64,000 nt of DNA from Gemmatimonadota bacterium (GTDB taxonomy: Bacteria; Gemmatimonadota; Gemmatimonadetes; Gemmatimonadales; Gemmatimonadaceae), in NCBI GenBank assembly GCA_023249375.1, contig JAHFCT010000011.1, positions 8,199 through 72,198 of the forward strand. Reading direction: 5' to 3'. The translations under genes were made by a program, and so were the position numbers. The notes beneath the pieces were generated by a model. It was not told where the DNA came from. It did not search any database and saw only the letters and a list, made by a program, of their open reading frames with translations. Shown here one piece after another: positions 806-35,483 of the stretch (position 1 is its first letter; the number at the start of each line of letters is the position of its first letter).

Positions 806-1624
806 CTATTTTGCCCTGCCCTGCCTCAATATGAAGCTGGTCACGTTCGCTACCTTCTGGTCGGACATCGCGCTGCGGCGACCGCCCGTAGACATGTGCC
901 CCCGGAGAAAGCCCGCAAACGTCGACCAGCTCGCAAGTTCCGACGCCGACGTAAAGCTGCGCCTCCCCCAGACGGGCCCGCCCTTGGTGCTCCCCTGGCC
1001 ATTTGCGCCGTGGCACGACGCGCACTCCGTGCGCCACACCGCCGCCCCTTCGGTCGAGTTGCCGGCCTTCACCGTCAGCGTGTCGTCGCCCTGCCCCTCG
1101 ACGTGTGAGCCGAGCGGCACGCCGCGCGACAGGAAAGCGATGTATGACACTAGCGCTTCCATCTGCGGGTGGTCCGGGGCGAGCGCGGGCGCGCGCAGGT
1201 TGCGGCGCAGGCAGATATTCACGCGTTCGTGCACGGTCATCACGCCGCCGTGCGTATCGACGCGCGGGTAGCGCGCGTACGTTCCCACCCACGGCAGGGC
1301 GCCGCGTTTCGTGCCCGCGTCGAGGTGGCAGCTCGCGCACCGCAGCGCCCCCGCCTCCAAGTGCATTGAGTCGCGCGTGGCAATCGCGATCGCGCGCCCA
1401 CGGCGAATGGCGGCGCCCATGGCATCGCTGGGTATGAGTGAATCGGCCGGCACGACGAAGAACGCCGTGTCACTCTCGGGCCGCGGCGTGGGCGTCGCCG
1501 CAACAAGCGTGACCATTCCGCCAAAGACGCGGCGAGGCGGGTCCGCGCGTTCAGCTCGGCACGCCGCGACGAGGACGAGCGTGGCAGCGAGCACCGGCCG
1601 GCGGAAGACGGCGGCGGACGGCAT
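806..1624 (-). CDS. TsdA-like diheme cytochrome c lipoprotein
   Basis: Predicted exported diheme c-type cytochrome of 272 residues. The N-terminus has a hydrophobic stretch ending in VAAC (Cys22), a plausible lipobox. Heme sites are CASCH at 96-100 and a second CASCH in the C-terminal half. The segment after heme 1 (LDAGT, then a Cys at 138 in VHERVNICLRR, then PQMEALVSYIAFLSRGVP) resembles thiosulfate dehydrogenase TsdA, whose first heme is ligated by a Cys in this region. Thiosulfate oxidation or tetrathionate reduction is therefore possible but unproven. The gene starts 11 bases after the rng stop, so the two are probably co-transcribed, an unusual position for a cytochrome. Confidence 0.85.
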   Translation of the reverse strand: MPSAAVFRRPVLAATLVLVAACRAERADPPRRVFGGMVTLVAATPTPRPESDTAFFVVPADSLIPSDAMGAAIRRGRAIAIATRDSMHLEAGALRCASCHLDAGTKRGALPWVGTYARYPRVDTHGGVMTVHERVNICLRRNLRAPALAPDHPQMEALVSYIAFLSRGVPLGSHVEGQGDDTLTVKAGNSTEGAAVWRTECASCHGANGQGSTKGGPVWGRRSFTSASELASWSTFAGFLRGHMSTGGRRSAMSDQKVANVTSFILRQGRAK

Positions 1625-9431: not shown

Positions 9432-9572
9432 GATGAAAGGTAGCGCGCCGAGGTGCTGAAGGAGGAGCGTGGCGCGTTTCCTTGCCGCGCCCCCTTCCGC
9501 ACGCGACGTTTAGCGGCGCGAGATTCGCTCCGGCGAGTTCGCCACAGCCGCCCTCAAGCCTTTGCCCGACTC

Positions 9573-12500: not shown

Positions 12501-12794
12501 GCGGGCGACAAGGCCGCGTCGGAGCGGACGATGGTGAATTTCACCGCGGCGGTCGAAGGGCGGATTCCCAAGTACGACTCGATCTACGCGTACAAACGCC
12601 CCATCGACGGCCGCATCGTCTGGATCCATGCCCTCGGACATGTGGTCTCGAATGCCAGTGGCACACCGACAGACATGTACGGGGTGACGGTGGACATCAC
12701 CGACACCAAGATGCTCGAAGATGAACTCCGCGCCGCTGCCGCCAGCGCCGGAGAAGTGCCCGCGGTTTCGACGGGGCGCCGTGTCGATGCCTGA
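9573..12794 (+). CDS. Membrane PAS/GAF sensor protein without kinase domain
   Basis: Sensor protein of 1073 residues. Order: transmembrane helix (about 8-28), extracytoplasmic Cache-like domain, second helix (LIALLVWVAGIVLLI, about 310), PAS (TSYDAVITLDSQQHVVDWNV), a GAF-like region, then three more PAS domains (NMGTWKFVVPEG and NAGYWHVPLDGSGW mark the last two). It stops just after the last PAS in a coiled linker (MLEDELRAAAASAG), exactly where a HisKA domain would begin. No H box, ATPase, GGDEF, EAL or receiver is present. The first 650 or so residues are plainly paralogous to the next gene, 51 bases downstream. ATG at 9573 starts at the signal-anchor helix; the upstream part of the frame is rejected. 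It may act as a regulatory partner of the neighbouring kinase (inference). Confidence 0.9.
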   Translation: MSIRSLLTRRFLIFLVGWSAVVAMLGEVVARQRAETVARSARDESAGQAALIARTLSQSLETARGIALTFRSAPAVAALLDAIPSAQIERMTDSTARRVLLSVRPDVAALSMVMAENVRAISVLDALYLQDAQGLIVASGDHNMASSRIGRRFVGQAFLRRLAKEDVVQIYAPSLLTGRPGFLFGASILKDTRVIGSVVARVEADTITRTLSGVHQTLVLVTDSAGRVLASSDPRQVLRRIDLPGAVDDTSVARLPTVAGSLGALYAGPVGHSDLRRAWVTVPLDEFGLSLHVVRRLTEAQSQLNAARLIALLVWVAGIVLLIANARGVQQLADVANAQRLAEAEQRRVADILNTSYDAVITLDSQQHVVDWNVRAEAIFGYKASEMVGTNPIERIVPQRWRGKHAAGFENAVRVSRSDNLGTPRDLTALNRSGLEFPVELTVSTARDADGGLLFVAFFRDVSTRRQEEEARAAVSERTERYRTVLLEFSQRTKIEWDQTLRHLLREAKRAVGVGRASFWRLDAQIETMTCEVMLDADAEDTASSGLQLSRAETPRYFRVLRLGQPIAAANAVTHEATRDFAESYLVPNGVGSVLDTPVWFEGRQIGVFSLEHRGKPRAWEPDTVEFASTIASQIGLLQESVRRVASERALDEEREQAKRVLSSTPVAQVVWETQEGLASANPAAVTLFRYPSEGAMKGKFPWDLSPPEQAGGESSRAKGAEYVARCMAEGSASFEWIFSRADGDTFPASVTLVRLTESGSQRLSTIIDLSAQKAAEAAVAASAQALQEAREQLGLALRSANMGTWKFVVPEGRLEADENTKSLYGLQDVELDGTMAQWFTFIHPDDLAPLGQVMQETMALQRADYRATFRVCQPDGSVRHIMSVGKFSYAADGTATVANGVVWDITDLKNAEEAVRHVSFLSDQALDLTNAGYWHVPLDGSGWYNSSERACRVFGDIPRDGYRYRIMEDWFANVEAGDKAASERTMVNFTAAVEGRIPKYDSIYAYKRPIDGRIVWIHALGHVVSNASGTPTDMYGVTVDITDTKMLEDELRAAAASAGEVPAVSTGRRVDA

Positions 12795-12845
12795 CCGTCG
12801 CTTCCTCCCTGATATCGTCCTCGCTTCCGTGCGAGCCATATACCA

Positions 12846-15800
12846 ATGAAGTCCCTGCTGACCCGTCGCGTCACGCTGCTGCTGCTGCTGGGCTGGACCT
12901 TTCTTATCGCCGGCGTCGGCGAGTGGATCGCACGCCAGCGAGCGTCCACAGTTGCCCAGACGCTCACGGAACAGTCCGCGGGCCAGGCGGCCCTCGTGGC
13001 GCGGACATTGAACTACTCGTTGCAAACCGTGCGCGGCGTCGCACTCACCTTCCGGGCGCATCCGAGCGCCTCCGAGCTGCTGGTCGCGCTCCCGGCTGGA
13101 TCGATCAAGGCGATGAGCGACTCGAGCGCGCGCCGCGCTGCACTCAGCGCGCGCCCCGACGTCGCGGCGCTCTCCACCATCTTCGCGGCGAATGTCCGCG
13201 CGGTGAACGGCCTTGATGCACTCTGGTTGCAGGACCGTGATGGCCTCATTCTCGCGAGCAGCGATCGCGAACAGGCGAGCAGCCGTATCGGTCGCTTGTC
13301 TTCGCACTCCCGGTTCAGTGAGCGGCTCAACCGGGAGGACGAGGTACAGTTCTATGCGCCTTCCCTGCTCACGAGCAGACCCGGGTTCCTCTTCGGCGCG
13401 TCCATCCTGCGGAATGCCCGTGTCATCGGCGCGGTGGTCGCCCGGTCCGAAACGGACTCGCTCACGCAACTGCTCGCCGGCAATCCCGAGACGAAGGTGC
13501 TCGTCACGGACAGCGCCGGGCGCGTGCTGGCCTCATCGGATCGGCGGCTGGTCCTCCGTCGGATCGAAGCGGACGGAGCGGTGGCGGACACCGCCGTTCT
13601 GCACCTGCAGACCGTCACCTCGCTGCTTGGGCCTCTGTACGCGAAGACGGGGCACGGACTGGAGTTGCTCCGCGCATGGGTCTCGCAGCCGATGGACGAA
13701 TTTGGGTTGACGCTGCACTTCGTGCGCCCGCTCCCCGAAGCGCGGTCGCAGCTGAATGACACGCGCCTGATCGCCCTGCTTGTCTGGCTCGCCGGCGTCG
13801 TGGCCCTGCTCGCCGACGCGCGCGGCAAACAACAGCTTGCCAGTGTGGCGAAGGCCGAGCGCCGGGCCGTCGCCGAGCAGCAGCGGGTCAGTGACCTGCT
13901 CAACACGTCGTACGACGCCGTCGTCACGCTCGATGCCGCGCACCGGGTGGTGGACTGGAACGTGCGCGCCGAGGTGGTGTTTGGTTACGCGGCTTCGGAG
14001 ATGGTTGGCACCGATCCCACGGAGCGCATCGTCCCGCCGCGCTGGCGCGCCGCGCACCGCTCCGGCTTCGACAGCGCAACGCAGATTGGACGCAGCGAGG
14101 TCTTCGGCAAACCGCGCGAGCTGACCGCGCTGAACCGGAAGGGCAATGAGTTCCCGGTCGAGTTGACGATGCGCCCGGCGAAGGGCGCCGACGGCGGGCA
14201 GACATTCGTCGCGTTCTTTCGCGACATCAGCACGCGCAAGCAGGAGGAGCAGATCCGCGCCGCCGTGGCGGAGCGCGTGGAACGGTATCGGTCGGTCGTC
14301 GCGGACTTCTCGGAGCAGGTCAAGGACGAGTGGGCGCCGGCGATCCGTCGCGTGCTGACGGAGAGCAAGCGCGCCATCGGTGTGGAACGCGCCTCGTTCT
14401 GGCGACTCGACGACGCGGCGGAACGCATGACGTGCGAATTACTCATCGCCGGCAGCGGTGAGGATCCTGAATGCGCCGGCATGCTGATGACGCGCGACCA
14501 GTCTCCTGCGTACTTCCGCGCCGTTCGGCGTCGACAGCAGATCGTCGCGCCACACGCGACGACGCACGAAGCCACGCGCGACCTGAGCGACGGCTACCTC
14601 GTACCGCTGCTCATCGAGTCACTGCTCGCCACGCCTGTCTGGTTTGAGGGACGCCACGTCGGCATCCTCTGCTTCGAACACGTGGGTCCGGCGCGCGCGT
14701 GGGAGGTTGAGACAACCGAATTCGCGTCGACGGTCGCCGGCCAGATCGCCCTGCTCATGGAGTCGGTGCGTCGCATCGAGAGCGAGAAGGCACTGAACGC
14801 CGAGCGCGAACGAATGGAGCGCGTGCTGCGTCGCTCCCCCATCGCGCAGACGATGTGGGATGGCGAGACGGGGCTCATTTTTGCCAATCCGGCAATGCTC
14901 ATGCTCTTCGGCTACCCCGACGAGGCGTCTTGCATTGGCAAGTTCGTGTGGAATTTCTCGCCGGCGTCGCAGCCCAATGGCCGGGTCAGCAGGGAGTTCG
15001 CTGAAGAGCTCGTCTCACGTCTGCCGGAACTTGGGCAGCTCTCCACCGAGTGGACGCACGAGCGGACGGATGGATCGACCTTCCCCGCCGCCATCACACT
15101 CGTCGACCTGCAGGAACCGGGACGCGTGCGCTTCATCGCGACGATCGTCGACCTGACGGAGCAGAAGGAGGCGCAGGCCGCCATCATCGCCGCCAAGGAA
15201 GCCGCCGAACAGGCCGAGGCCACCAAGTCGGCCTTCCTCGCGACGATGAGCCACGAAATCCGCACGCCGATGAACGGCGTGATGTCGATGGCCGAAATGC
15301 TCGATCAGACGGAACTGGACGAGGACCAACGCGGCATGCTCCACGTCGTGCGCTCGTCGGCCGATTCCCTGCTGACCATCATCAACGACATCCTCGACTT
15401 CTCGAAGATCGAGGCCGGCAAGATGACCATCGAGTCGGTGGAGCTCTCGCCGGCCGCCATCATCGAAGACGTCGTGCAGCTGCTCGCCGGCCGTGCGCAG
15501 GACAAGGAGATCGGTCTCTACGCCGAGGTCCAGTCGAATCTCCCCGCCACGTTGCTCGGCGACCCGACGCGACTGCGGCAAGTGGTCGTGAACCTGGCCG
15601 GCAATGCCCTCAAGTTCACGGAAGACGGCTACGTCCGCGTGCGCGCCGGCCTGACGCCTGCGTCGCATCTGCGCATCGAGATCAGCGATACCGGCATCGG
15701 CCTCACGGAAGAACAGCGGGCCCGGCTCTTCCAGCCGTTCATGCAGGCCGACACGAGCACGGCGCGCAAGTTTGGCGGCACCGGACTTGGCCTCTCGATC

Positions 15801-17243
15801 TGCCGCAAGCTGGTCGAGATGATGGGCGGCAAGATCGGCGTCGACTCGACGATCGGCCGGGGATCGACCTTCTGGTTCGAAGTGCCGCTGCCCGTCAGCG
15901 CGCCACCGACGTCACCGGACGTGCGCATCAACGACCTCGCGATCATGCTGGCCGGTTTTCCGGAGGAGCATGCGCGAATCCTCGACGCCTACGTACGCGC
16001 CGCCGGTTGCGCGCCGGCCATCGTCTGCTCGAAGGCTTCCGAGGCACTCGAGCGGTTAACGCGCGACGCCTCGCTCACGCCGGTAGTCGTGCTCCCCACC
16101 TATCCCGAAGACCACCCGGGCGGCGGCCTGCAGATTGCGCGGGCTTTACGTGAGATGCCGGGGCGCGAGCAAACGCCCGTCTGCCTGGTGGTGCCATCCA
16201 CGCTGATCTCCAGCGCGTCCGCCGCGGCGCAAACGGGCTTCATCGCCACCACGAGCGAGCCCGTGCGTCGCGATCGTTTCTGGCGCATGCTGGCGGTTGC
16301 CGTGGGGCGCGCCGAAGCCGAGCGCCGGGTCAGACGCGCCACGGGAGACGAGCACTTTGAGGCGCCGCCGATGGAACTGGCTGCCGCGAAAGGCGCGGTG
16401 ATCCTCGTGGCCGAGGACAATCGCACCAACCAGATCGTCATCGGCCGTCTGCTGCAACAGCTCGGACTGGCGTACGAGATCGCCGACAATGGCAAGCGCG
16501 CACTGGATCGGCTCGACGCGGATCGAACGCGTTTCGGACTGCTGCTCAGCGACTTCCACATGCCCGAGATGGACGGCTTCGAACTCACGGCGCACTGGCG
16601 CGACCGCGAGCGGCACGGCAAGGCCACGGGTCGCCTGCCGATCCTGGCGCTGACGGCCGACGCGCTCGCCGGCATGGCGGAGCGCTGCAAGGAAGCCGGC
16701 ATGGATGGCTATCTCACCAAGCCAATTGTACGCGACGCGCTGGTGGCCGAACTCGAGCACTGGCTGCCCGTGGCGTTCGATCTGCGTACGGCGGCAACGG
16801 CGCGGCCCCCGCGCCCAGTCAAGGACGGCGTCACGACGCCGGAGCAGTCGGTGGTGACCGCAAACACATCGACTCCCGCGTCCGCGAGCGCCGCAACGGC
16901 ACCACCGGCAATTGACATGGCCGCATTTGCGAAGCAACTCGGCATCGAGCCGGGGCCAGATGCGATCGAGCTGCTGGAAGCGCTGTGGGAGTCGGTCGCT
17001 GACCTCGGCACGCAGCTGCGATCGGCGCTCGACGCAAAGAACCGGACCGCACTCCGCGAAGTTGCGCACGGCGGCAAGGGCGCGGCCAAGTCCATCGGCG
17101 CGTTCGTGCTGGGCGATGTGTGCTCCGCACTCCAGGACGACGCCGAGGCGCGTCCGTGGGAGGAGCTGGCGACAGCGGTGGCCGGTGCCATCGCAGAGCA
17201 CGCGCGCGTCGGCGAGGCGGTGGCAGCCATGACAATGGGCTAG
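12846..17243 (+). CDS. Hybrid sensor histidine kinase with receiver and HPt domains
   Basis: Multidomain phosphorelay kinase of 1465 residues. Order: transmembrane helix, Cache-like periplasmic domain, second helix (about 300), PAS, GAF-like region, PAS, HisKA (FLATMSHEIRTPMNG, His803), ATPase domain (LAGNALKFTEDG, DTGIGLTEEQRARLFQPF, GGTGLGLSICRKLVEMMGG), a degenerate receiver lacking the acceptor Asp (about 1020-1140), a full receiver (LSDFHMPEMDGFE, Asp1236; GYLTKPI) and a C-terminal HPt (EVAHGGKGAAKSIG, His1408). All steps of a His-Asp-His relay are in one chain. It follows its kinase-less paralogue and precedes a CZB protein; the REC-EAL and HPt genes nearby are candidate partners. Confidence 0.95.
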   Translation: MKSLLTRRVTLLLLLGWTFLIAGVGEWIARQRASTVAQTLTEQSAGQAALVARTLNYSLQTVRGVALTFRAHPSASELLVALPAGSIKAMSDSSARRAALSARPDVAALSTIFAANVRAVNGLDALWLQDRDGLILASSDREQASSRIGRLSSHSRFSERLNREDEVQFYAPSLLTSRPGFLFGASILRNARVIGAVVARSETDSLTQLLAGNPETKVLVTDSAGRVLASSDRRLVLRRIEADGAVADTAVLHLQTVTSLLGPLYAKTGHGLELLRAWVSQPMDEFGLTLHFVRPLPEARSQLNDTRLIALLVWLAGVVALLADARGKQQLASVAKAERRAVAEQQRVSDLLNTSYDAVVTLDAAHRVVDWNVRAEVVFGYAASEMVGTDPTERIVPPRWRAAHRSGFDSATQIGRSEVFGKPRELTALNRKGNEFPVELTMRPAKGADGGQTFVAFFRDISTRKQEEQIRAAVAERVERYRSVVADFSEQVKDEWAPAIRRVLTESKRAIGVERASFWRLDDAAERMTCELLIAGSGEDPECAGMLMTRDQSPAYFRAVRRRQQIVAPHATTHEATRDLSDGYLVPLLIESLLATPVWFEGRHVGILCFEHVGPARAWEVETTEFASTVAGQIALLMESVRRIESEKALNAERERMERVLRRSPIAQTMWDGETGLIFANPAMLMLFGYPDEASCIGKFVWNFSPASQPNGRVSREFAEELVSRLPELGQLSTEWTHERTDGSTFPAAITLVDLQEPGRVRFIATIVDLTEQKEAQAAIIAAKEAAEQAEATKSAFLATMSHEIRTPMNGVMSMAEMLDQTELDEDQRGMLHVVRSSADSLLTIINDILDFSKIEAGKMTIESVELSPAAIIEDVVQLLAGRAQDKEIGLYAEVQSNLPATLLGDPTRLRQVVVNLAGNALKFTEDGYVRVRAGLTPASHLRIEISDTGIGLTEEQRARLFQPFMQADTSTARKFGGTGLGLSICRKLVEMMGGKIGVDSTIGRGSTFWFEVPLPVSAPPTSPDVRINDLAIMLAGFPEEHARILDAYVRAAGCAPAIVCSKASEALERLTRDASLTPVVVLPTYPEDHPGGGLQIARALREMPGREQTPVCLVVPSTLISSASAAAQTGFIATTSEPVRRDRFWRMLAVAVGRAEAERRVRRATGDEHFEAPPMELAAAKGAVILVAEDNRTNQIVIGRLLQQLGLAYEIADNGKRALDRLDADRTRFGLLLSDFHMPEMDGFELTAHWRDRERHGKATGRLPILALTADALAGMAERCKEAGMDGYLTKPIVRDALVAELEHWLPVAFDLRTAATARPPRPVKDGVTTPEQSVVTANTSTPASASAATAPPAIDMAAFAKQLGIEPGPDAIELLEALWESVADLGTQLRSALDAKNRTALREVAHGGKGAAKSIGAFVLGDVCSALQDDAEARPWEELATAVAGAIAEHARVGEAVAAMTMG

Positions 17244-17292
17244 ACGAGAAGACGGCGCTCGATCAGGGCAACACCCACGACACGGATTGAAC

Positions 17293-17670
17293 ATGGATTT
17301 CGACGCAGCGATACAGGCGCACGCCAACTGGGCGACGAAACTCGTCGCCTACTCCAATGGCCTGTCGCACGAGCGCATCGACCCGGGGAATGCCGCTCGT
17401 GACGATCAGTGCGCTCTTGGCCAGTGGCTGCACGGGGACGGCAAGCAGGTGATGGCGGGACGCTACGAGTACCTGGAACTGCTGCGCGCCCACGCCGATT
17501 TCCACCGTCAGGCCGGCTCGCTCCTGCGCCTAGCCGACTCCGGCGAGGGGGCCCGTGTGCGCGCACTGCTCGATGATACGCAGTCGCCGTTTCGGCTCTG
17601 CTCGAACAAGGTCGTGAGCCTGTTGCAGTCGATCAAGGCGTCCCTCACGAAACCGCCATCCGGGCGATAG
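17293..17670 (+). CDS. CZB domain protein (chemoreceptor zinc-binding)
   Basis: A 125-residue protein consisting of little more than a CZB domain, a zinc-binding module usually found at the C-terminus of chemoreceptors and diguanylate cyclases. The expected His-Cys-His-His pattern is present: His10 (IQAHANW), Cys40 (DDQCALGQWLHG), His67 and His71 (LLRAHADFHRQAG). Stand-alone CZB proteins can sense zinc or hypochlorous acid through the Cys. It sits 49 bases after the hybrid kinase, on the same strand, and probably belongs to that unit. ATG at 17293 is preferred to a TTG six bases earlier. Confidence 0.88.
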   Translation: MDFDAAIQAHANWATKLVAYSNGLSHERIDPGNAARDDQCALGQWLHGDGKQVMAGRYEYLELLRAHADFHRQAGSLLRLADSGEGARVRALLDDTQSPFRLCSNKVVSLLQSIKASLTKPPSGR

Positions 17671-26962: not shown

Positions 26963-27280
26963 ATGCGCTACGTCGTCGCTGCCGCCGTGTTTGTCCTTGC
27001 CAATCACGCGCCGCTGCAGGCCCAAGGCGCCGACGGCAAGGCGCTCTTTGAGTCCAACTGCAAGAAGTGCCACGGCACTGGTCAGCCGGTGCCGGCGATC
27101 AAGAAGTTGTTCCCCGAGATTCCGGTGTGGGACGCGGCGTTCTTCGCCGCGCGCACCGAAACGGATATCGTCGCAACCATTACAAACGGTAAGGGGAAGA
27201 ACATGAAGGCATGGCGGGAAGTGCTGAAGGCCGACGAAATCGAGGCCATCGCCAAATACATCCGGACGTTGCCGAAGTAG
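26963..27280 (+). CDS. Monoheme cytochrome c
   Basis: Small exported cytochrome c of 105 residues. A signal peptide (MRYVVAAAVFVLANHAPLQA) is followed by GADGKALFESNCKKCHG with one CxxCH heme site. A likely distal Met ligand is in GKNMKAW, and a C-terminal helix (ADEIEAIAKYIRTLP) completes a class I fold. It is a paralogue of the cytochrome at 27609, same length and same GADGK...NCKKCH frame. It opens the multiheme cluster and is likely a soluble periplasmic electron shuttle. Confidence 0.93.
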   Translation: MRYVVAAAVFVLANHAPLQAQGADGKALFESNCKKCHGTGQPVPAIKKLFPEIPVWDAAFFAARTETDIVATITNGKGKNMKAWREVLKADEIEAIAKYIRTLPK

Positions 27281-27321
27281 CGGCGACAACACCGCTGAGG
27301 AGCAAAGGGCGTGGCGCCGCA

Positions 27322-27346
27322 GAGGCGTCACGCCTCATTTGTTTGT
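27322..27346 (+). terminator. Possible weak terminator after first cytochrome
   Basis: GAGGCG-TCA-CGCCTC (27322-27336) forms a 6-bp hairpin followed by ATTTGTTTGT. It would separate the first cytochrome transcript from the rest of the cluster. The stem is short, so confidence is limited. Confidence 0.4.
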
Positions 27347-27447
27347 CCGCCCGTTGACGGCAACGCCAAGCGTCCGTCTGGCACATCGGACAATCCCTCG
27401 TTGAATGTAGGGAAAACTCCGTATACACATCGCGGATAATGCCCCAC

Positions 27448-27474
27448 TTACAACAGCCGTACAACTCCTATACT
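27448..27474 (+). promoter_or_regulatory. Candidate promoter for the decaheme conduit genes
   Basis: The gap 27281-27608 has a stretch (about 27390-27560) visibly richer in A and T than its surroundings. Within it TATACT (27469-27474) is a good -10 element, with TTACAA 15 bases upstream, shorter than the ideal spacing. The start would be near 27481, leaving a long leader of about 130 bases before the cytochrome at 27609. Apart from this and the hairpin at 27322 I see nothing else in the gap. Confidence 0.35.
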
Positions 27475-27608
27475 CCAACCACGGTAACTGCGTAGGGGAA
27501 ATACCGAATGCGAATTGGTATGTCTACGTACGCAGTGACCCGTTTCCCGACCGAACTTCAGTACTGACCCCGGCAATCGCCGACGTCTACAACACAAGGA
27601 GCAACGCG

Positions 27609-27926
27609 ATGCGTTCGATCTTCCTGCTTGGTGTCCTGGCCGCCGCTCTGACCACCAGCGCCGCCGCGCAGGGCGCCGATGGGAAGGCGATCTACGACGC
27701 GAATTGCAAGAAGTGCCATCACGACGACGGCAAGCCCGTGGCCGGCATCAAGAAGATGAATCCGAAGATCGAGGAGTTCAGCGCGGCGTTCTTCGCCAAG
27801 CACGCTGATGCCGAGATGCTGAAGGCGGTGAAGGAAGGCAAGGACAAGATGAAGCCGTTCGGTGAGAAGCTGAAGGCTGATGAAATCGATGCGGTGCTGA
27901 AGTACATCAAGGCGACGTTCAAGTAG
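27609..27926 (+). CDS. Monoheme cytochrome c (paralogue)
   Basis: Exported monoheme cytochrome c of 105 residues with signal peptide MRSIFLLGVLAAALTTSAAA, heme site CKKCH after GADGKAIYDAN, a Met in KDKMKPFG as likely distal ligand, and a lysine-rich C-terminal helix (ADEIDAVLKYIKATF). It is more lysine-rich than the paralogue at 26963, so the pair may differ in partner. An AAGGAG ribosome binding site precedes the ATG. It directly precedes the decaheme cytochrome and is likely its periplasmic donor or acceptor. Confidence 0.93.
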   Translation: MRSIFLLGVLAAALTTSAAAQGADGKAIYDANCKKCHHDDGKPVAGIKKMNPKIEEFSAAFFAKHADAEMLKAVKEGKDKMKPFGEKLKADEIDAVLKYIKATFK

Positions 27927-28020
27927 CCGCCTGCGCCCCCTAGGTCGTCCCCCAGTCCCACCCGGTAATCCCTACCCTACCCAGATGTACCGCCCGCACT
28001 CGGGCACCGGAGGAATAGCA

Positions 28021-28941
28021 ATGAACGGAAAGCGATACCTGCGTTGGCTGGGCGCCATCGTCACTGCGGTGATGCTGGCCTGCCTGCCGACCGTGGCGAG
28101 CGCGCAAAAGCCGGCCGCCGGATACGGCGGCGATCAGCTCTGCGCCGATTGCCACAAGGACCTCTTCGCGCCGTACGCCAAGACTGCGATGGGTCAGGCG
28201 ATGGCGCATCCGCGCGCCGGTCATGAGGCCAAGGGCTGCGAGTCCTGCCACGGACCGGCCAAGGCTCATGCCGAGTCGGGCGGCGAGACGAAGGCCGGCA
28301 TGACGCTGTACGGCCACAAGAAGAACTCGTCGCCGGTGAAGGCGCAGAACGCGAACTGCCTGCAGTGCCACGAGAAGACCTCCCGCACCATGTGGGCGGG
28401 AAGCATTCACGAGGCGCGCAACGTCGCGTGCGTCGACTGCCACGCCGTGATGCACGACAACACGGAGAAGGGCAACCTGAAGAAGGCGACGGTGCTCGCC
28501 ACCTGCGGCGGCTGCCACAAGGACAAGGCGGCGGCCATGAGCAAGTACTCGCACATGCCGCTGACCGAAGGGAAGATGGAGTGCACGAGCTGCCACAGCC
28601 CGCACGGCTCCGCCAACGAAAAGCTGCTCGTCGCGGCCGGCACGAATGAAACGTGCTTCAGCTGCCACGCCGAGAAGCGCGGTCCGTACATGTGGGAGCA
28701 CCTGCCGGTGACCGAGAACTGCTCGAACTGCCACGACGCCCATGGCAGCAACAAGCAGCGCATGCTGAAGTACCAGCTGCCGCGTCTCTGCCAGAACTGC
28801 CACTTCACGCCGCACGGTGCCCCGTCGGGCCGTCCGTCTGACCAGGCCAACGTCCGCTTCAACTACAACAAGGGCTGCTCGAACTGCCACTCCGCGATCC
28901 ACGGTTCGAACCATCCTGGCGGCATCTACTTCACCCGCTGA
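28021..28941 (+). CDS. Decaheme cytochrome c, MtrA/DmsE/PioA type
   Basis: Periplasmic decaheme cytochrome of 306 residues. After a signal peptide (about 1-28) there are ten CxxCH sites: CADCH, CESCH, CLQCH, CVDCH, CGGCH, CTSCH, CFSCH, CSNCH, CQNCH, CSNCH. Heme number and length match MtrA/DmsE, which fills an outer-membrane barrel and carries electrons across it. The start at MNGKRYLRWLG is supported by a GGAGGA site. The matching barrel gene follows after 26 bases. Substrate side and direction of electron flow cannot be read from this gene. Confidence 0.95.
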   Translation: MNGKRYLRWLGAIVTAVMLACLPTVASAQKPAAGYGGDQLCADCHKDLFAPYAKTAMGQAMAHPRAGHEAKGCESCHGPAKAHAESGGETKAGMTLYGHKKNSSPVKAQNANCLQCHEKTSRTMWAGSIHEARNVACVDCHAVMHDNTEKGNLKKATVLATCGGCHKDKAAAMSKYSHMPLTEGKMECTSCHSPHGSANEKLLVAAGTNETCFSCHAEKRGPYMWEHLPVTENCSNCHDAHGSNKQRMLKYQLPRLCQNCHFTPHGAPSGRPSDQANVRFNYNKGCSNCHSAIHGSNHPGGIYFTR

Positions 28942-28967
28942 CGCCACCGACAGAGGAATTCAAAACC

Positions 28968-31319
28968 ATGCGTCTCTATAGCATCACGACCGCGTGTGTC
29001 CTCGCCGGTGCGCTGGCTATGGCCCTTCCGGCCACCAGCCACGCGCAGGCGAAGAAGACCAGCGGCACCTTTACGGCCGCCGCCGAGATCGGCGCGCGCG
29101 CCTTCACGACCGAACCTGCCGACGTCGACAAGGGCAAGTTCGAGGAATACCGTTCCCTGCCCGCCGGCGCCATTCTCGAGCGCTTCTCGGTCGGCTACAC
29201 GCCGGCCGACGAAACCGGCACGTACCAGCTGACGGGCCGCCACATCGGCCAGCTCGACCAGAGCCTGTGGCTGCAGGCGTCGCGTCCCAACCTGTACGAT
29301 TTCAGCCTGCGCTGGGACAAGACGCCGCACATCTACTCCTCGACGGGGCGTTCGCCCGGCAACGAGGGCGTCGCCGCCCTCGGGTTCAACACGCTGCCGA
29401 GCACCCGTCCGGACTCCACGGCGTGGAAGAACGCGCCGCTCATCGGCAACATCCGCACGATCTGGGATCCCATCAGCGCCAAGCTCGCGCTGTACCCGTC
29501 GGAAGCGCTCGACACCAAGATCGAGTGGCTGCACATCGGCAAGAAGGGCGGCATCCCGAAGTCGATCACGTTCAGCGCCACCAGCGGCCCGACGCGTGAA
29601 TACGTGTCGCCGATCGACGAGTCGATCAACAACTTCAAGGTCGCGCAGTCGTATGCGTCGGGTACCCGCGCGGCGACCAGCTTCCTGGGCGAGTGGATCA
29701 AGAGCTTCCAGGGGACGGTGTCGTACGAGTACTCGAAGTACACCAACAACCTGTCGTCGGTGTACGTCGACAATCCGCAGATCAGCACGGCGTCGATCAG
29801 CGGCACGGTTTTCGGAGCGAGCACGGCGCGCGTCGCGCTGGCGCCGAGCAACTCGGCGCAGACGATGTCGCTGATGGGGTCGGTGCTGCTGCCGTTCCGC
29901 ACGCGGGTCACGGGCTCCGTGAACGCGTCGATGCAGGACCAGAACGAAGCGTTCATCGCGCCGTACAACAACACGGCGCTCGCCGCCGACGTGAACGCCA
30001 GCAAGACGACGCTCCCGCGCTCGAGCCTCGACGGCAAGGTGAAGCTCACGACGGTCAACATCACGGCGTCGAGCCATCCGATCGACAAGCTGTCGCTGGG
30101 CGCCAAGTATCGGAACCACAGCTACAGCAACCAGACGGAAGAACTCACGCTGGCCGCCATCTCCGTGGCCGACCGCGCGATCAGCGCCGCGACTGGCGGA
30201 TACAGCACGGAAGCGGATCCGTTCACCAAGGTGAACACGGACCTGACCGCGGCCTACCAGGTCGTGCCCAACGGTTCGATCGGCGTCGGCTACGCGGTGG
30301 AGGACTTCACCCGCGAACCCTCGGCGTACCGCATTGACGGCACGCGCGAGAAGGCGCCGCGCGTGAGCGTGGACTACAGTGGCATCAGCTGGCTCTCGCT
30401 CCATGCCGGCTACCTGACCAGCCAGCGCAAGTTCTACGGGCAGTACCGCGAAGCAGCCACGGAAGTGACGGACATGCGCAGCTACATGTTCGCCAACCGC
30501 GACCGCAAGCGCACGAACCTGATGGCGACGGTCACGCCGTTCGACCAGATCAGCGTCGGCCTGTCGTACCAGAACAACGACGACAAGTATCGTGACCTGC
30601 GCTTTGGCATCACGAGCGACAAGCTCACGAGCACGGGTGTGGACATCGACTACACGCCGATGAGCCGCCTGTCGATGGGACTGGGCTACACCGATGAGAA
30701 GGGCGACAACATCGCGCGGTATCGCTATCGCACCGGCGCCGTCGGCTCGGCGACGTACGATAATCCGGGGTTCTACTGGACGACGAGCTATCTCGACCGG
30801 AACAAGGGCCTGTCGGCCAACGTGAAGGCGACGCTGATCCCCGACAAGCTCGAGATGACGGTGTACTACGCGAACACCGACGCCAAGAGCCACGTGCTCA
30901 ACGTCAACGACGTCAACCCGCCCACGGGCGGCACCGCGGCGAACCAGCTGGCGGCGACGGTCGAGAACTGGCCGGAAGTCTCGCAGAAGCTGACGCCGCT
31001 CAACTTCGCGTTCCAGTACAAGGTCAGCGCCGACTGGGCGTTCACCCTGCGCTATAACGCGGAAGAGTACACGAACCACAACTTCCAGGCCGAGGCACCG
31101 AAGTTCACCACGACCACCGTCCTCGGCGGAACGCCGGTGGCGACGACGTGGGTGTCGCCGGACCTGCCGGGCAACGTGGGCGCGACCACTGGCTCGAACA
31201 CCGGCCAGTACCACTTCCTCGGCGCCAACTACCACAGCTACAAGGCGAACTGGCTGACCTTCACGGTCTCCTGGCATCCGTCTTCGCTGCCGCCCGCCGC
31301 CGGACGCGCAGCCTACTAG
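28968..31319 (+). CDS. MtrB/PioB-family outer-membrane beta-barrel protein
   Basis: Outer-membrane porin-like sheath for the decaheme cytochrome, 783 residues. Signal peptide MRLYSITTACVLAGALAMALPAT region ends at about residue 26. The rest is rich in alternating polar/aromatic strands typical of a large barrel (GLSYQNNDDKYRDLRFG, MGLGYTDEKGDNIARYR, FQYKVSADWAFTLRYNAEE). The N-terminal CxxC of Shewanella MtrB is absent, as in several PioB-type members. The C-terminus ends in a hydrophobic strand region (WLTFTVSWHPSSLPP). No cell-surface decaheme lipoprotein (MtrC/OmcA) is encoded nearby. Confidence 0.88.
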   Translation: MRLYSITTACVLAGALAMALPATSHAQAKKTSGTFTAAAEIGARAFTTEPADVDKGKFEEYRSLPAGAILERFSVGYTPADETGTYQLTGRHIGQLDQSLWLQASRPNLYDFSLRWDKTPHIYSSTGRSPGNEGVAALGFNTLPSTRPDSTAWKNAPLIGNIRTIWDPISAKLALYPSEALDTKIEWLHIGKKGGIPKSITFSATSGPTREYVSPIDESINNFKVAQSYASGTRAATSFLGEWIKSFQGTVSYEYSKYTNNLSSVYVDNPQISTASISGTVFGASTARVALAPSNSAQTMSLMGSVLLPFRTRVTGSVNASMQDQNEAFIAPYNNTALAADVNASKTTLPRSSLDGKVKLTTVNITASSHPIDKLSLGAKYRNHSYSNQTEELTLAAISVADRAISAATGGYSTEADPFTKVNTDLTAAYQVVPNGSIGVGYAVEDFTREPSAYRIDGTREKAPRVSVDYSGISWLSLHAGYLTSQRKFYGQYREAATEVTDMRSYMFANRDRKRTNLMATVTPFDQISVGLSYQNNDDKYRDLRFGITSDKLTSTGVDIDYTPMSRLSMGLGYTDEKGDNIARYRYRTGAVGSATYDNPGFYWTTSYLDRNKGLSANVKATLIPDKLEMTVYYANTDAKSHVLNVNDVNPPTGGTAANQLAATVENWPEVSQKLTPLNFAFQYKVSADWAFTLRYNAEEYTNHNFQAEAPKFTTTTVLGGTPVATTWVSPDLPGNVGATTGSNTGQYHFLGANYHSYKANWLTFTVSWHPSSLPPAAGRAAY

Positions 31320-31331
31320 TCTGACCGATTG

Positions 31332-31369
31332 CACGGCGGCGATGGGAACTCCTTCCATCGCCGTCCGTG
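31332..31369 (+). other. Intercistronic hairpin after the barrel gene
   Basis: A 14-bp stem with one bulged T: 31332-31345 pairs with 31355-31369. It lies 12 bases after the MtrB-like stop and has no T tract. It probably stabilises or attenuates the mRNA between the outer-membrane pair and the inner-membrane trio. Confidence 0.6.
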
Positions 31370-31444
31370 TAAACGGGCTGTTCTTCCGTGGGTGCTCCAT
31401 CCGGATGCCCACATCGCCAACCCTCGAGTAAGGGTCAGCATATC

Positions 31445-32005
31445 ATGCGGCATGCAGGGCACTTCCTGCGGCTCGTCGCACTCGTCGCCGTCGCGGTGGT
31501 GGGGTTCCTCTTCGTCCGCTCACAGGTGGTGCCGAAGGACTTCGGCGTCACCGGCCACTTTCGCCTCTCGGCGATCGCCGACGAAGGCAAGCGTGAGGCT
31601 CGGCACATTGGCAGCGATGCCTGCGCCGAATGCCACGACGACATTGGCAAATCGTGGAAGACGGGCAAGCACCACACGCCGCAGTGCGAGAACTGCCACG
31701 GCCCCGGCCTGATGCACACCAAGGTGGTGGCCGAGGAATCGACGACTGCCTACCCCGACAAGATCCTGAAGCTCAAGAACGCGATCAAGCGTCCCACCGG
31801 CATTCAGGAATGCAAGTGGTGCCACCTGCGCACGTTCGAGCGGCCCAGCACGCTGAAGTCGATCGCGAACGTCGAGGCGCACGTCAGCGAGCACAAGGGC
31901 ACGTTCACGAAAGACACCAAGTGCATTGACTGCCACAATCCTCATACGACGCTGGTGACCTTCGATGCGAAGGGCCTCCCCGTCAAACCCAAGATCGCCC
32001 CGTGA
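31445..32005 (+). CDS. Membrane-anchored tetraheme cytochrome c
   Basis: A 186-residue cytochrome with an N-terminal hydrophobic anchor (HFLRLVALVAVAVVGFLFV) and four heme sites: CAECH, CENCH, CKWCH and CIDCH. The anchor has no obvious cleavage site, so it probably stays in the inner membrane facing the periplasm. ATG at 31445 is chosen over a GTG further upstream that would add an unmatched extension. Its stop overlaps the GTG of the ferredoxin gene (GTGA). It is the natural link between the ferredoxin/NrfD module and the decaheme cytochrome. A role like the cytochrome of Geobacter Cbc-type quinone oxidoreductases is proposed by analogy. Confidence 0.92.
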   Translation: MRHAGHFLRLVALVAVAVVGFLFVRSQVVPKDFGVTGHFRLSAIADEGKREARHIGSDACAECHDDIGKSWKTGKHHTPQCENCHGPGLMHTKVVAEESTTAYPDKILKLKNAIKRPTGIQECKWCHLRTFERPSTLKSIANVEAHVSEHKGTFTKDTKCIDCHNPHTTLVTFDAKGLPVKPKIAP

Positions 32006-32823
32006 TCAGCCCCCATACTCCGGACGACGTCTCCCGCCGGGCCTTCCTGGAGACAGTCGCCAAGACCGGCGGCCAGAGCTTCCTGTTTGGCAGCCTCTTC
32101 GTCAACACCGCGATGCTGCGCCTGCCGCAGGATGTCGCGAGCCCGAAGGCGAAGTCCGAAACCGAGGTCGGCAAGGGTGTCGTCTACGGTTTCGTCGTGG
32201 ACACGACCAAGTGCATCGGCTGCGGCTCATGCGTGCGCGCCTGTCGCGCCGAGAACGGCGTGCCCGATGGCTACAACCGCACGTGGGTAGAGCAATACAC
32301 GTTCTATCCCGACGGTGAGGTCGTAGTCAACTCGCCGAATGGCGGCGAAAACGGTTTTGCCGAGCCGCCGACGCGCAACATGCCGGCGGAACTGGAGAAG
32401 GTGCAGCCGGTGCGCGGGTTCTTCGTGCCCAAGCTCTGCAATCACTGCATCGACACGCCGTGCATTCAGGTCTGCCCGGTGGGCGCGTCATTCAAGACGC
32501 CCGAGGGCGTGGTGCTGGTGGATCACGAGCGGTGCGTGGGCTGCGCCTACTGCGTGCAGGCCTGCCCGTTCGGTTCGCGGTACTTGAACCCCGAGACCAA
32601 CACCGCCGACAAGTGCACGTGGTGCCACCACCGCATCACCAAGGGGCTGCTGCCGGCCTGCGTGGTGTCGTGTCCCGCCGAGGCGCGCATTTTCGGCAAT
32701 GTGAGTGACCCCGAGAGCAAGATCAGCCGGATTCTCGCGACCAACCGCGTGCAGGTGCTCAAGTCGTACCTCGGCACGCGGCCGCGCACCCGGTACATCG
32801 GGCTCGACTCCGAGGTGATCTAG
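32002..32823 (+). CDS. Four-cluster 4Fe-4S ferredoxin subunit, HybA/NrfC/PsrB-like
   Basis: Iron-sulfur electron-transfer subunit of 273 residues. The N-terminus has a twin-arginine-like signal (SRRAFLETVAKTGG) suggesting export with folded clusters. Cysteine groups for four [4Fe-4S] clusters are visible: CIGCGSCVRAC, CNHCIDTPCIQVCP, CVGCAYCVQACPFG and CTWCHHRITKG with CVVSCP. It begins with GTG in a GTGA overlap with the tetraheme gene, and the NrfD gene follows after three bases. In this family the subunit passes electrons between the NrfD quinone site and a partner, here probably the tetraheme cytochrome since no molybdopterin subunit is present. Confidence 0.94.
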   Translation: MISPHTPDDVSRRAFLETVAKTGGQSFLFGSLFVNTAMLRLPQDVASPKAKSETEVGKGVVYGFVVDTTKCIGCGSCVRACRAENGVPDGYNRTWVEQYTFYPDGEVVVNSPNGGENGFAEPPTRNMPAELEKVQPVRGFFVPKLCNHCIDTPCIQVCPVGASFKTPEGVVLVDHERCVGCAYCVQACPFGSRYLNPETNTADKCTWCHHRITKGLLPACVVSCPAEARIFGNVSDPESKISRILATNRVQVLKSYLGTRPRTRYIGLDSEVI

Positions 32824-32826
32824 TCC

Positions 32827-34068
32827 ATGCATCATTTCATCACCGAAGGGTACGTCCTGCCCAACCAGCAGCACATCTACTGGACCGTGATGATCGTGCT
32901 GTACCCGTACATCACGGGCATTGTCGCGGGCGCGTTCATCATCTCGTCGCTGCATCACGTGTTCGACAAGGATGAACTGAAGCCGGTGAGCCGGTTCGCG
33001 ATGGTGATGGCGTTCGCCTTCCTGCTCTTTGCCACACTGCCGCTGCTGAACCATCTCGGGCATCCGGAGCGGGCGCTGAACATCATGTTCACGCCCAACC
33101 TGACGTCGGCGATGGCCGGGTTCGGATTCATCTACTCGACGTACCTGTTCATCCTCGCGGTGGAGATCTGGCTGGTCTACCGCGTGGACATCGTGCATTT
33201 GTACAACGAGACGAGGTTCCCCGCCCTCAAGCCGGTGTATTGGCTGCTCGCGCTGGGCGTGCTGGACATTTCCGAAGAAGCCAAGGTGGTCGATCACAAG
33301 GTGATGGTCTTCCTCGCGTCGATCGGCATTCCCGCCGCGTGCGGCCTGCACGGCTACGTGGGCTTCATTTTCGGCGCGATCAAGGCCAATCCGTGGTGGG
33401 CGAGCCCGCTGATGCCGGTGATCTTCCTGCTGAGCGCCATCGTGTCGGGCGTGGCGATGGTGATGATCTGCTACATCATCATCCAGTGGTTCAACGGACG
33501 CGAGGTGGACGGCGCGTGCGTGAGCGCGCTCATCGAGACGGCGTGGTACTTCCTGATCATCGACGTCGCGCTCGAGTTGCTGGAACTGATCAACCACGCG
33601 TACATGGCCAACGAGGACTGGACGATCCTCAAGACACTGGTCACGACCAAGCTGTTCGTGAGCATGTTCATCATCCAGATCCTGCTCGGCTCGGTGGTGC
33701 CGTTTCTTGCCATGGGGGCGGTGGTCGTGTTCAAGCAGCGCATTCCGGCGGCGGTGCGCAACGTGATCGGCGTCGTCTGCGGCCTGCTGCTCCTGGCGCA
33801 AGTGGCCGCAATGCGGTGGAACGTCGTGATGGGCGGGCAGATGTTCTCCAAGAGCCTGCGCGGCTTCCTGAACTTCGAGGTCGACCTCGGCGGGCGCGAA
33901 GGGCTCTTCGCGGGACTCTTCATCCTCTGCCTGCCCTTCGTCGTGATCTTCGTGTTCTCGCGGCTGCTGCCGCTGTGGGGAGCGGTGGACACGTTCCCGA
34001 AGGCGTGGATGAAGGAGAAGCCGCCGGTCCGCCAGCCACTGAAGGGATTCTCAAAGTTTTCGTCGTAG
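32827..34068 (+). CDS. NrfD/PsrC-like quinone-interacting membrane subunit
   Basis: Integral membrane protein of 413 residues with about ten hydrophobic helices. Early features are HIYWTVMIVLYPYITGIVAG and LLNHLGHPERALN, the latter typical of NrfD/PsrC proteins. These subunits exchange electrons with the quinone pool at the periplasmic side and pass them to the ferredoxin partner. It is the last gene of the tetraheme-ferredoxin-NrfD group. Together they can connect menaquinol to the decaheme/barrel conduit. Proton translocation, as in alternative complex III relatives, cannot be judged from the sequence here. Confidence 0.93.
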   Translation: MHHFITEGYVLPNQQHIYWTVMIVLYPYITGIVAGAFIISSLHHVFDKDELKPVSRFAMVMAFAFLLFATLPLLNHLGHPERALNIMFTPNLTSAMAGFGFIYSTYLFILAVEIWLVYRVDIVHLYNETRFPALKPVYWLLALGVLDISEEAKVVDHKVMVFLASIGIPAACGLHGYVGFIFGAIKANPWWASPLMPVIFLLSAIVSGVAMVMICYIIIQWFNGREVDGACVSALIETAWYFLIIDVALELLELINHAYMANEDWTILKTLVTTKLFVSMFIIQILLGSVVPFLAMGAVVVFKQRIPAAVRNVIGVVCGLLLLAQVAAMRWNVVMGGQMFSKSLRGFLNFEVDLGGREGLFAGLFILCLPFVVIFVFSRLLPLWGAVDTFPKAWMKEKPPVRQPLKGFSKFSS

Positions 34069-34102: not shown

Positions 34103-34867
34103 ATGAACAGCCAATATCTGTCCTATATCATCTACGCCGCGGTCGTCATCTTCCTCGTGAAGTTTGGCGTGCGCATCGTCAAGCAGTACGAGCGGGGCGT
34201 GGTCCTTCGCTTCGGCCGCCTGATTGCGGTGCGGAACCCCGGCTTCAACGTCATCATCCCGCTGGTCGACAAGATGTACAAGGTCGACACCCGCGTGGTG
34301 ACGCTCACGGTGGAGCCGCAGGAACTGATTACCCGCGACAATGTCACCATCAAGGTGGACGCGGTGGTGTACTTCATGGTCGTCGATCCGGCCAAGGCGA
34401 TTCTTCAGGTCGTCGAGTACGGCAAGGCGACATCGCAGATTGCGCTGACGACCCTGCGGAGCGTGCTCGGCCAGTCGGAACTCGATGAACTGCTGGCGCA
34501 GCGCGACAAGATCAACCAGAAGCTGGCGCACATCATCGACGAACACACCGAGCCGTGGGGCGTGAAGGTGTCGATCGTCGAGGTGAAGGATGTCCTGCTG
34601 CCCGACTCGATGCAGCGCACGATGGCCGCGGCGGCCGAAGCGGAGCGCGAGAAGCGCGCGAAGATCATCCGCGCCGACGGCGAGTTCATGGCGGCGGAGA
34701 CGCTGGCAAAGGCCGCGGCGATCATCCGCAGCGAGCCGCCCGCGCTGCAGCTGCGGTACCTGCAGTCGCTGGTCGAGATGACGAGCAACGGCAACAGCAC
34801 GCTGATTCCGGTGACGATGGACCTGCTGGGCGGGCTGAAGTCGGCGTTCGGCGGGGACGCGAAGTAG
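34103..34867 (+). CDS. SPFH/band 7 (slipin) membrane protein
   Basis: A 254-residue stomatin-like protein. One N-terminal membrane anchor (SYIIYAAVVIFLVKFGVRIV) is followed by the SPFH domain (YERGVVLRFGRLIAVRNPGF, VTIKVDAVVYFMVVDP) and an alanine/glutamate-rich coiled coil (AAAAEAEREKRAKIIRADGE). Length is normal. A GGGAG site precedes the ATG, 35 bases after nrfD, so it may be read with the electron-transfer genes. Slipins organise membrane protein assemblies or act with NfeD proteases; no nfeD is adjacent. Confidence 0.93.
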   Translation: MNSQYLSYIIYAAVVIFLVKFGVRIVKQYERGVVLRFGRLIAVRNPGFNVIIPLVDKMYKVDTRVVTLTVEPQELITRDNVTIKVDAVVYFMVVDPAKAILQVVEYGKATSQIALTTLRSVLGQSELDELLAQRDKINQKLAHIIDEHTEPWGVKVSIVEVKDVLLPDSMQRTMAAAAEAEREKRAKIIRADGEFMAAETLAKAAAIIRSEPPALQLRYLQSLVEMTSNGNSTLIPVTMDLLGGLKSAFGGDAK

Positions 34868-34910: not shown

Positions 34911-35030
34911 GACAGGGATCACGGATTTCGATTGAGGATTCCGATTGAGGAAGTGGATGGCGATCATCGTGGACCATCGCTCATCCGGCTCCGGAATCGA
35001 TATCTTTCATCGCCATCCGTGATCCCTGTC
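34911..35030. repeat. Long-range inverted repeat with internal direct repeats
   Basis: Arms 34911-34926 and 35015-35030 are perfect 16-bp inverted copies (GACAGGGATCACGGAT and its complement) enclosing 88 bases. Inside, GGATGGCGAT (34955-34964) can alternatively pair with 35009-35018, competing with the outer right arm. GATTGAGGA occurs three times (34904, 34930, 34943). It may be a small RNA-like or regulatory element before the copper chaperone gene, or a dispersed repeat. Confidence 0.7.
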
Positions 35031-35048
35031 CGCCATCGCGAGCCACCC

Positions 35049-35483
35049 ATGCGCTCCCTCGTACTCTCCGTGGCATTCGCTGCGCTCGCTGCCTGCTCGC
35101 GGCCGGGGCCGCCCAAGGCCGTTCCGCCGCTCGAGGTTCGCGACGCGTGGGCGCGCTCGGCCGACTCGGGAACGGTCACCGTGGTGTACTTCACCTTCGT
35201 CAACCACGAAGCCGCTCCCGTCACGTTGACCAGCGCGTCGTCGCCGCTAGCCTATTCGGTCTCGCTGCACGAGACGATGGAGATGAGCGGGATGGTGCAC
35301 ATGATGCCGATCGACACGGTGCGCGTGGCCCCGGCTGACTCACTGGTGCTCGCCGAGGGCGGCAAGCATCTCATGGTCAACCATCTGTGGAAGAAGCTCG
35401 CGGGCGGTGACTCACTGCCGGTCACGCTGAACTTCGCCGGCGGACGCAGCCTGAACCTCAAGGCGGCGGTGCGGGCGCCGTAA
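35049..35483 (+). CDS. Copper chaperone PCu(A)C lipoprotein
   Basis: Periplasmic copper chaperone of 144 residues that delivers Cu(I) to cytochrome oxidase CuA/CuB sites. A lipobox (AALAAC, Cys16) follows the signal. The PCuAC pattern is present: DAWAR near the start, HETMEMSGMVHMM with clustered Met/His, and a late GGKHLMVNHL. ATG at 35049 gives a proper signal peptide; the upstream extension is repeat sequence. The gene stands alone beyond the inverted repeat and suggests an aerobic oxidase elsewhere in the genome. Confidence 0.9.
   Translation: MRSLVLSVAFAALAACSRPGPPKAVPPLEVRDAWARSADSGTVTVVYFTFVNHEAAPVTLTSASSPLAYSVSLHETMEMSGMVHMMPIDTVRVAPADSLVLAEGGKHLMVNHLWKKLAGGDSLPVTLNFAGGRSLNLKAAVRAP

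Follow-up and report, generated by a model that had tools for sequence, protein, structure and literature searches.

An mtrAB locus with an adjacent ferredoxin/NrfD quinone module in Gemmatimonadaceae and its candidate role in electron transfer

Which inner-membrane complex would exchange electrons with an outer-membrane MtrAB conduit when the genes beside it encode an NrfD-type quinone protein? Most of the Mtr-type conduits known so far come from Proteobacteria, where their partners are CymA-like, and a different neighbourhood is found in the stretch of 64,000 nt analysed here (the window; contig JAHFCT010000011.1, 8,199-72,198), which lies within one 83 kb contig (C26) of the 3.8 Mb, 96% complete metagenome-assembled genome (MAG) of an uncultured Gemmatimonadota bacterium (GCA_023249375.1); its closest named relatives are Gemmatimonas/Gemmatimonadetes MAGs. 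At 26963-34068 of the window, seven intact open reading frames on the plus strand encode two monoheme cytochromes (cyt1, cyt2), MtrA, MtrB and a trio of an anchored tetraheme cytochrome (c4), an NrfC-like ferredoxin and an NrfD-like membrane protein (Table 1). On balance we lean towards reading this locus as an MtrAB outer-membrane conduit joined to a stand-alone quinone:cytochrome c oxidoreductase formed by the trio, which would have taken the place of a Rieske/cytochrome b (bc) complex.

Components of the conduit and of the quinone module

The list of parts for these seven consecutive genes, as drawn up in a first-pass annotation of the DNA, was borne out by the intact frames, the Pfam/NCBIfam matches and the CXXCH counts (one each in cyt1 and cyt2, ten in MtrA, none in MtrB and four in c4). 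The called open reading frames of the window (~19,700 residues) contain 20 CXXCH motifs, of which 17 fall within the seven genes; clustering of heme motifs by chance was ruled out, with 2000 shufflings of MtrA yielding at most 2 motifs, as was a chimeric assembly, given that this row and its flanks recur in independent MAGs.

Both halves of the outer-membrane pair were assigned as previously annotated. MtrA exceeds the curated cut-off of the DmsE decaheme family (TIGR03508; 245.7 against 192.2 bits) and aligns in sequence with chain A of 6r2q, the solved Mtr complex (E 1.1e-53), with ten CXXCH motifs present in all 15 homologues compared; judged by its signal peptide, its start is more likely the ATG at 28021. 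MtrB is a divergent member of its family: it scores 241.8 bits against PF11854 (MtrB_PioB; cut-off 23) and misses the cut-off of the subfamily TIGR03509 (188.1 against 240.05 bits), and while its sequence match to 6r2q chain B is weak (E 1.3e-6), the top Foldseek match of its predicted fold in the PDB is this same chain (6r2q_B, E 8.2e-24; model of moderate confidence, mean predicted local distance difference test (pLDDT) score 68.5).

For the trio, c4 showed no PF03264 domain (CymA/NapC/NrfH family) in a Pfam search and no confident fold match (mean pLDDT 80, the hemes being absent from the model), and homology to CymA or NrfH was therefore ruled out, in line with the earlier statement that the inner module is not CymA. 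Likewise c4 has no TIGR03146 match, and carries four hemes versus the five of the NrfB-type pentaheme proteins. Additional histidines are conserved at positions 91, 146 and 167, with His 76 near-invariant, which suggests that all four hemes are bis-His ligated. Since the orthologues start with MxHAxH, the start of c4 is most likely the ATG at 31445 (186 residues) and not the GTG at 31388; its stop overlaps the GTG start of the ferredoxin gene by 4 bases. At the N-terminus, ahead of the membrane helix, H6 and R9 are invariant across bacterial and archaeal c4 proteins (35 of 35).

The ferredoxin and NrfD both belong clearly to their broad families (Fer4_11, PF13247: 88.5 bits, cut-off 26.2; PF03916: 132.7 bits, cut-off 25.8) and fall below the cut-offs of the NrfC and NrfD equivalog models (169.5 against 377.6 bits and 52.8 against 347.6 bits). 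All 16 cysteines of the ferredoxin are near-invariant among 13 orthologues, as is Y183, which lies between cluster cysteines and corresponds by motif to the essential tyrosine Y113 of the NrfC-type QrcC (PMC13059093). The CTWCH of the ferredoxin was ruled out as a heme site: it lies within the cluster cysteine ligands and is missing in 7 of the 13 orthologues. In NrfD, H76, S94 and R330 are invariant in 10 orthologues; the first two align to the His and Ser of ActC (8k9e), with R330 assigned by motif, and a His/Asp/Glu in transmembrane (TM) helix 2 together with a Ser are described as forming the quinone site in this family (PMC8076601, Calisto and Pereira 2021). The ferredoxin and NrfD retain residues tied to quinone chemistry, and the conserved features agree with such a function.

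The two monoheme cytochromes are both class-I proteins sharing ~50% identity. Relatives of the locus keep a monoheme cytochrome directly upstream of c4 or of mtrA, and cyt2 is likely a periplasmic shuttle. A hairpin and a promoter-like site 3' of cyt1 weakly suggest that the operon proper begins at cyt2; cyt1 is probably a separate transcription unit.

Table 1. Features at and next to the mtrAB-trio locus (window coordinates)
Feature	Position	Strand	Details
cyt1, monoheme cytochrome c	26963-27280	+	105 aa, signal peptide, CKKCH; PF13442 E 4.6e-14
terminator-like hairpin	27307-27335	+	12-pair stem, T-rich tail; between cyt1 and cyt2; consensus match only
promoter-like site	27447-27474		between cyt1 and cyt2; consensus match only
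cyt2, monoheme cytochrome c	27609-27926	+	105 aa; PF13442 E 8.4e-13
MtrA/DmsE-type decaheme cytochrome	27985-28941	+	318 aa, ten CXXCH; TIGR03508
MtrB/PioB-type outer-membrane barrel	28968-31319	+	783 aa; PF11854
c4, N-terminally anchored tetraheme cytochrome	31388-32005	+	four CXXCH, one N-terminal TM segment
NrfC-like ferredoxin	32002-32823	+	16 Cys = four [4Fe-4S] clusters, Tat-like N-terminus SRRAFLE; PF13247
NrfD-like integral membrane quinone oxidoreductase subunit	32827-34068	+	413 aa, ~9 predicted TM segments; PF03916
SPFH/Band-7 protein	34103-34867	+	PF01145 E 1.7e-39; kept downstream within genus
PCu(A)C periplasmic copper chaperone	34932-35483	+	PF04314 E 1e-27; kept with trio

Exchange of quinone modules beside mtrAB

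Among 179 genomes of the family Gemmatimonadaceae, MtrB orthologues (at least 31% identity) were found in 17 and trio orthologues (at least 68% NrfD identity) in 13; five genomes have the two at a single locus. The gene run extends past NrfD into the SPFH and PCuAC genes (the true start of the latter probably being an internal ATG), which are conserved together with the cluster; to the left lies a divergent block of carboxyltransferase and B12-binding mutase genes, and to the right are genes for a mutase large subunit, a MeaB-like and a CBS-type protein, all named by sequence inspection. Identical flanks border the locus in other genomes, and orthologous sites can therefore be compared.

Five states were encountered. 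(a) MtrAB with the trio and without bc genes is found in the window and in G007 (JANYJW010000059), an independent MAG with the same gene row except for one monoheme cytochrome instead of two. (b) The trio with one or two monoheme cytochromes, without mtrAB, is present in G001, G002, G004, G005 and G009: of the six congeners with a complete locus, these five carry the trio alone at the same site and flanks, while G007 has both modules (in G003 the locus is interrupted by a contig end). (c) In G138 and G125 the order is Rieske, cytochrome b-c fusion, cytochrome c, MtrA, MtrB, c4, ferredoxin, NrfD; G407, whose contig begins inside mtrA, probably belongs here too. (d) Genes for the bc complex, a cytochrome c and MtrAB, without the trio, occur in G053 at the same flanks as in the window, and at other or unseen flanks in G124, G430, G199, G216, G419, G386, G011 and G014, as well as in G063 from another family. 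(e) Finally, bc genes and the trio with no mtrAB between them are found in G145 and, in opposite orientations, in G046. A neighbourhood search of this kind had been proposed with the first-pass annotation: the row, less one monoheme cytochrome, recurs in G007 and its mtrAB-trio part in G138 and G125, but not in the five congeners lacking mtrAB.

The association of mtrAB with the bc complex divides along the genus boundary: a Rieske/cytochrome b operon, identified by NCBIfam matches, precedes mtrAB in all 11 family members from other genera whose upstream side is visible, and in neither of the two inside the genus. The 11 genus genomes yielded no close homologue of this type of cytochrome b, and the window's own genome returned zero matches to it at E 1e-5; the trio has therefore probably replaced the cytochrome b complex as the quinone partner of MtrAB in this genus. 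Operons of Rieske, cytochrome b-c fusion, monoheme cytochrome, mtrA and mtrB (L037:6383-12216, L038, L039, L232, L240 and others) occur in many Gemmatimonadaceae, and in them the bc complex is genetically tied to the Mtr conduit; some adjoin apparent ccm cytochrome maturation genes, again named by inspection of the sequence.

In the MtrAB tree, the window pair falls in a well supported clade nested within bc-linked lineages, its closest relative being that of G124 from a different genus. The simplest history would be that an ancestral site with bc and mtrAB gained the trio, after which bc was lost in the window genus and mtrAB in most of its congeners. The trees themselves do not decide between gain and loss of mtrAB; loss in the congeners is the simpler because G138 and G125, from another genus, share mtrAB-c4-ferredoxin-NrfD beside the same flanking gene, and for this reason a recent gain of mtrAB by the window strain was not favoured. 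Gene transfer may also have played a part, the closest MtrAB being in another genus. Tentatively, one chromosomal slot may hold MtrAB with an interchangeable inner partner (Rieske/cytochrome b, the NrfD trio, or both), the window representing the state after loss of bc and takeover by the trio, in which case MtrAB could be driven by bc or by NrfD through the same small cytochrome.

The trio itself reaches far beyond this family. When each species was represented by one genome, a scan for the NrfD clade returned 526 relatives; the 79 best loci, which were inspected, belong to Deltaproteobacteria, Myxococcales and Anaeromyxobacter, Methanoperedens, Ignavibacteria/Melioribacter, Planctomycetes, Acidobacteria, Thermincola and others, with NrfD mostly preceded by a 4-, 8- or 9-heme cytochrome and a ferredoxin. 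Only two of the 79 have mtrAB beside the trio (L104, which is G007, and L107, which is G138), both from Gemmatimonadaceae. Given this wide occurrence and the rarity of adjacent mtrAB, the trio is a quinone:cytochrome c module that stands by itself and is spread over many phyla. In three Myxococcales loci (L148, L150, L152) it is divergent from a gene for a cytochrome of 1156-1322 residues with 34 CXXCH motifs, which is followed by a protein of 467-468 residues without a Pfam match and a 13-heme cytochrome, a possible unnamed porin-cytochrome cluster. The window's own genome holds a second, distant tetraheme-ferredoxin-NrfD trio on C63 (L043:9336-12204; NrfD 24% identical, without mtrAB) and, on C99 (L045:1615-4935), ferredoxin and NrfD genes, after which comes a cytochrome that has 13 CXXCH motifs and weakly matches the HmcA type.

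Electron path and competing explanations

The genes with their families, the conservation of cofactor ligands, the synteny and the exchange of modules are observed, and on them we can place a plausible, though not exclusive, pathway of an already known type. Quinol (or quinone) would react at a periplasm-facing site in NrfD, and electrons would pass through the four iron-sulphur clusters of the ferredoxin to the four hemes of c4, from there to MtrA either directly or through a monoheme cytochrome such as cyt2, and MtrA would carry them through the MtrB barrel to the cell surface. We infer the path, the docking of its partners, its direction and any external substrate; by analogy with NetBCD and SirCD, outward net flow is likelier, although the chain would be reversible. 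This assignment is supported by the family or structure matches of all parts, the conserved ligands and quinone residues and the row in G007, by the gene order in G138 and G125, the linkage of bc and mtrAB in 11 of 11 relatives, the missing cytochrome b and the MtrAB tree, and by precedent: modules of NrfD type supply Mtr pathways in Aeromonas and are able to stand in for CymA in Shewanella (PMC8805035, PMC11434368, PMC9012536).

Three observations weigh against it. The trio persists with its monoheme cytochromes and flanks in the five congeners without mtrAB, and must therefore have a role independent of this MtrAB. Further, no MtrC/OmcA-type surface cytochrome is encoded at the locus, nor does the genome hold a TIGR03507 match over the cut-off. 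Lastly, two other mtrAB pairs (contigs C64 and C73) and a NapC/NirT-type cytochrome on C33 make another inner partner for MtrAB possible. This last protein (533 residues, six hemes), which may be an ImcH-like quinol oxidase, is encoded divergently from a 13-heme cytochrome (723 residues, sharing 71% identity with a cytochrome that adjoins mtrAB in G046), a 4-heme protein and an 889-residue frame with repeated heme-domain matches (L279:2668-7242); genes outside the window may thus supply both a surface partner and another inner one. The complete quinone-to-surface conduit proposed in the first-pass annotation consequently stands as far as its parts are concerned, all of which are present with NrfD H76 and S94 retained, but not as one fixed unit, with the trio and mtrAB being separable in the congeners and in the clade scan. 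Similarly, the absence of MtrC/OmcA and of a molybdopterin enzyme holds for the window but is less certain for the genome at large, which has no MtrC/OmcA match over the cut-off but does have the C33 multiheme cytochromes and six molybdopterin-domain matches.

A serious, though on present evidence rather doubtful, alternative is that the trio and the monoheme cytochromes form a general quinol:cytochrome c oxidoreductase that replaces bc in ordinary respiration and feeds a copper oxidase, MtrAB being a side branch on a shared cytochrome c pool. The five congeners without mtrAB fit this well, as they keep the PCuAC copper chaperone along with trio and monoheme cytochromes; so do G145 and several phyla, in which the trio adjoins Rieske/cytochrome b with no mtrAB present, and the three full heme-copper oxidase subunit I genes of the genome. 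However, one of three further NrfD loci in this genome is already an alternative complex III (ACIII)-like complex (C120), the congeners lacking this mtrAB carry other mtrAB pairs, and the same trio family adjoins multiheme cytochrome clusters in Ignavibacteria, Myxococcales and others.

Electrons could also flow inwards, with extracellular Fe(II) or another donor oxidised at MtrAB in a Pio/Mto-like manner and passed through cytochrome c and NrfD to the quinone, driven by the membrane potential. We regard this as improbable: while the lack of MtrC recalls PioAB and MtoAB (PMC8805035), a monoheme cytochrome adjoins mtrAB and QrcABCD provides an NrfD module that reduces quinone from a periplasmic cytochrome (PMC13059093), the acyl-CoA and methylmalonyl-CoA breakdown genes flanking the locus suggest a heterotroph, and Mtr sequences do not reveal direction (PMC8805035). 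It is very improbable that MtrAB and NrfD serve a DmsEFAB-like extracellular or periplasmic molybdoenzyme encoded elsewhere, for which the six molybdopterin-domain matches of the genome would speak: Pfam/NCBIfam profiles found no molybdopterin catalytic subunit among the called frames of the locus, none of the six genome matches lies on C26 or near the window trio, the four examined comprise one formate dehydrogenase alpha subunit over its cut-off and three DmsA/Fdh-like proteins below every specific cut-off, the other two have ACIII-like and Nuo-like surroundings, and the surroundings of the trio-mtrAB loci contained no recognisable molybdoenzyme.

Elsewhere in the window, positions 9453-17667 encode a CZB-domain protein and, in tandem, a pair of large sensor proteins of 1113 and 1465 residues (Cache/PAS/GAF, and a hybrid histidine kinase that has receiver and Hpt domains), and there is a SoxA/TsdA-type diheme cytochrome c at 809-1624 (minus strand) beside RNase E/G and apparent L27/L21 ribosomal protein genes.

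Relation to known systems

The closest functional precedent for the mechanism is Aeromonas hydrophila, in which mtrCAB (AHA_2764-2766), pdsA (2763) and netBCD (2762-2760) are adjacent (Conley 2018 as cited in PMC9012536, PMC13393422, PMC8805035). Common to both systems is a single cluster that combines MtrAB with a small cytochrome of the periplasm and a multi-subunit quinol oxidase of Nrf type, and novelty of an NrfD module beside mtrAB is thereby ruled out. The window differs in its phylum, in lacking MtrC, in having a monoheme rather than a diheme shuttle and in relatives that use a bc complex instead; moreover, NetB of Aeromonas is NrfB-like, whereas c4 is an anchored tetraheme protein without an NrfB-type match (NetBCD being set apart here by description). 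SirCD from Shewanella oneidensis is likewise a ferredoxin/NrfD-type quinol dehydrogenase, which can replace CymA upstream of several pathways including that for ferric citrate (PMC11434368, citing Cordova 2011); unlike the window trio, it is described there with no dedicated anchored tetraheme cytochrome and is not encoded with mtrAB. Cbc4 (CbcSTU) of Geobacter sulfurreducens, linked to metal-oxide respiration, resembles the trio by description in combining a c-type cytochrome, an iron-sulphur protein and a membrane quinone subunit without a catalytic subunit, but is not described with mtrAB (PMC11434368). In Melioribacter roseus and MBNT15, NrfCD with a multiheme cytochrome c replacing the molybdopterin subunit of a complex iron-sulphur molybdoenzyme (CISM) complex is proposed to feed Fe(III) reduction (PMC3534657, PMC9386147); here the cytochrome is different and no MtrAB is described. 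On the outer-membrane side, the MtrAB core without MtrC is like PioAB and MtoAB, whose known or proposed inner partners are PioC and CymA/MtoC instead of an NrfD trio, and it is homologous to the Shewanella Mtr complex 6r2q in both MtrA and MtrB by sequence and in MtrB by fold, again without MtrC.

An MtrCAB record exists for Gemmatimonas sp. SG8_38_2 (PMC8805035), and the present arrangement was found undescribed in the open-licence literature on MtrA/MtrB with NrfD or in Gemmatimonadota. To the extent that this could be checked, two things are new: an anchored-tetraheme quinone module beside an MtrC-less MtrAB in this phylum, and a single MtrAB lineage next to which the bc complex and the NrfD trio alternate. 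A slot holding differing quinone modules beside MtrAB provides a natural experiment on which inner complexes power an outer-membrane wire, and bears on the energy yield with each partner and on how common extracellular electron transfer is in the hardly studied Gemmatimonadota.

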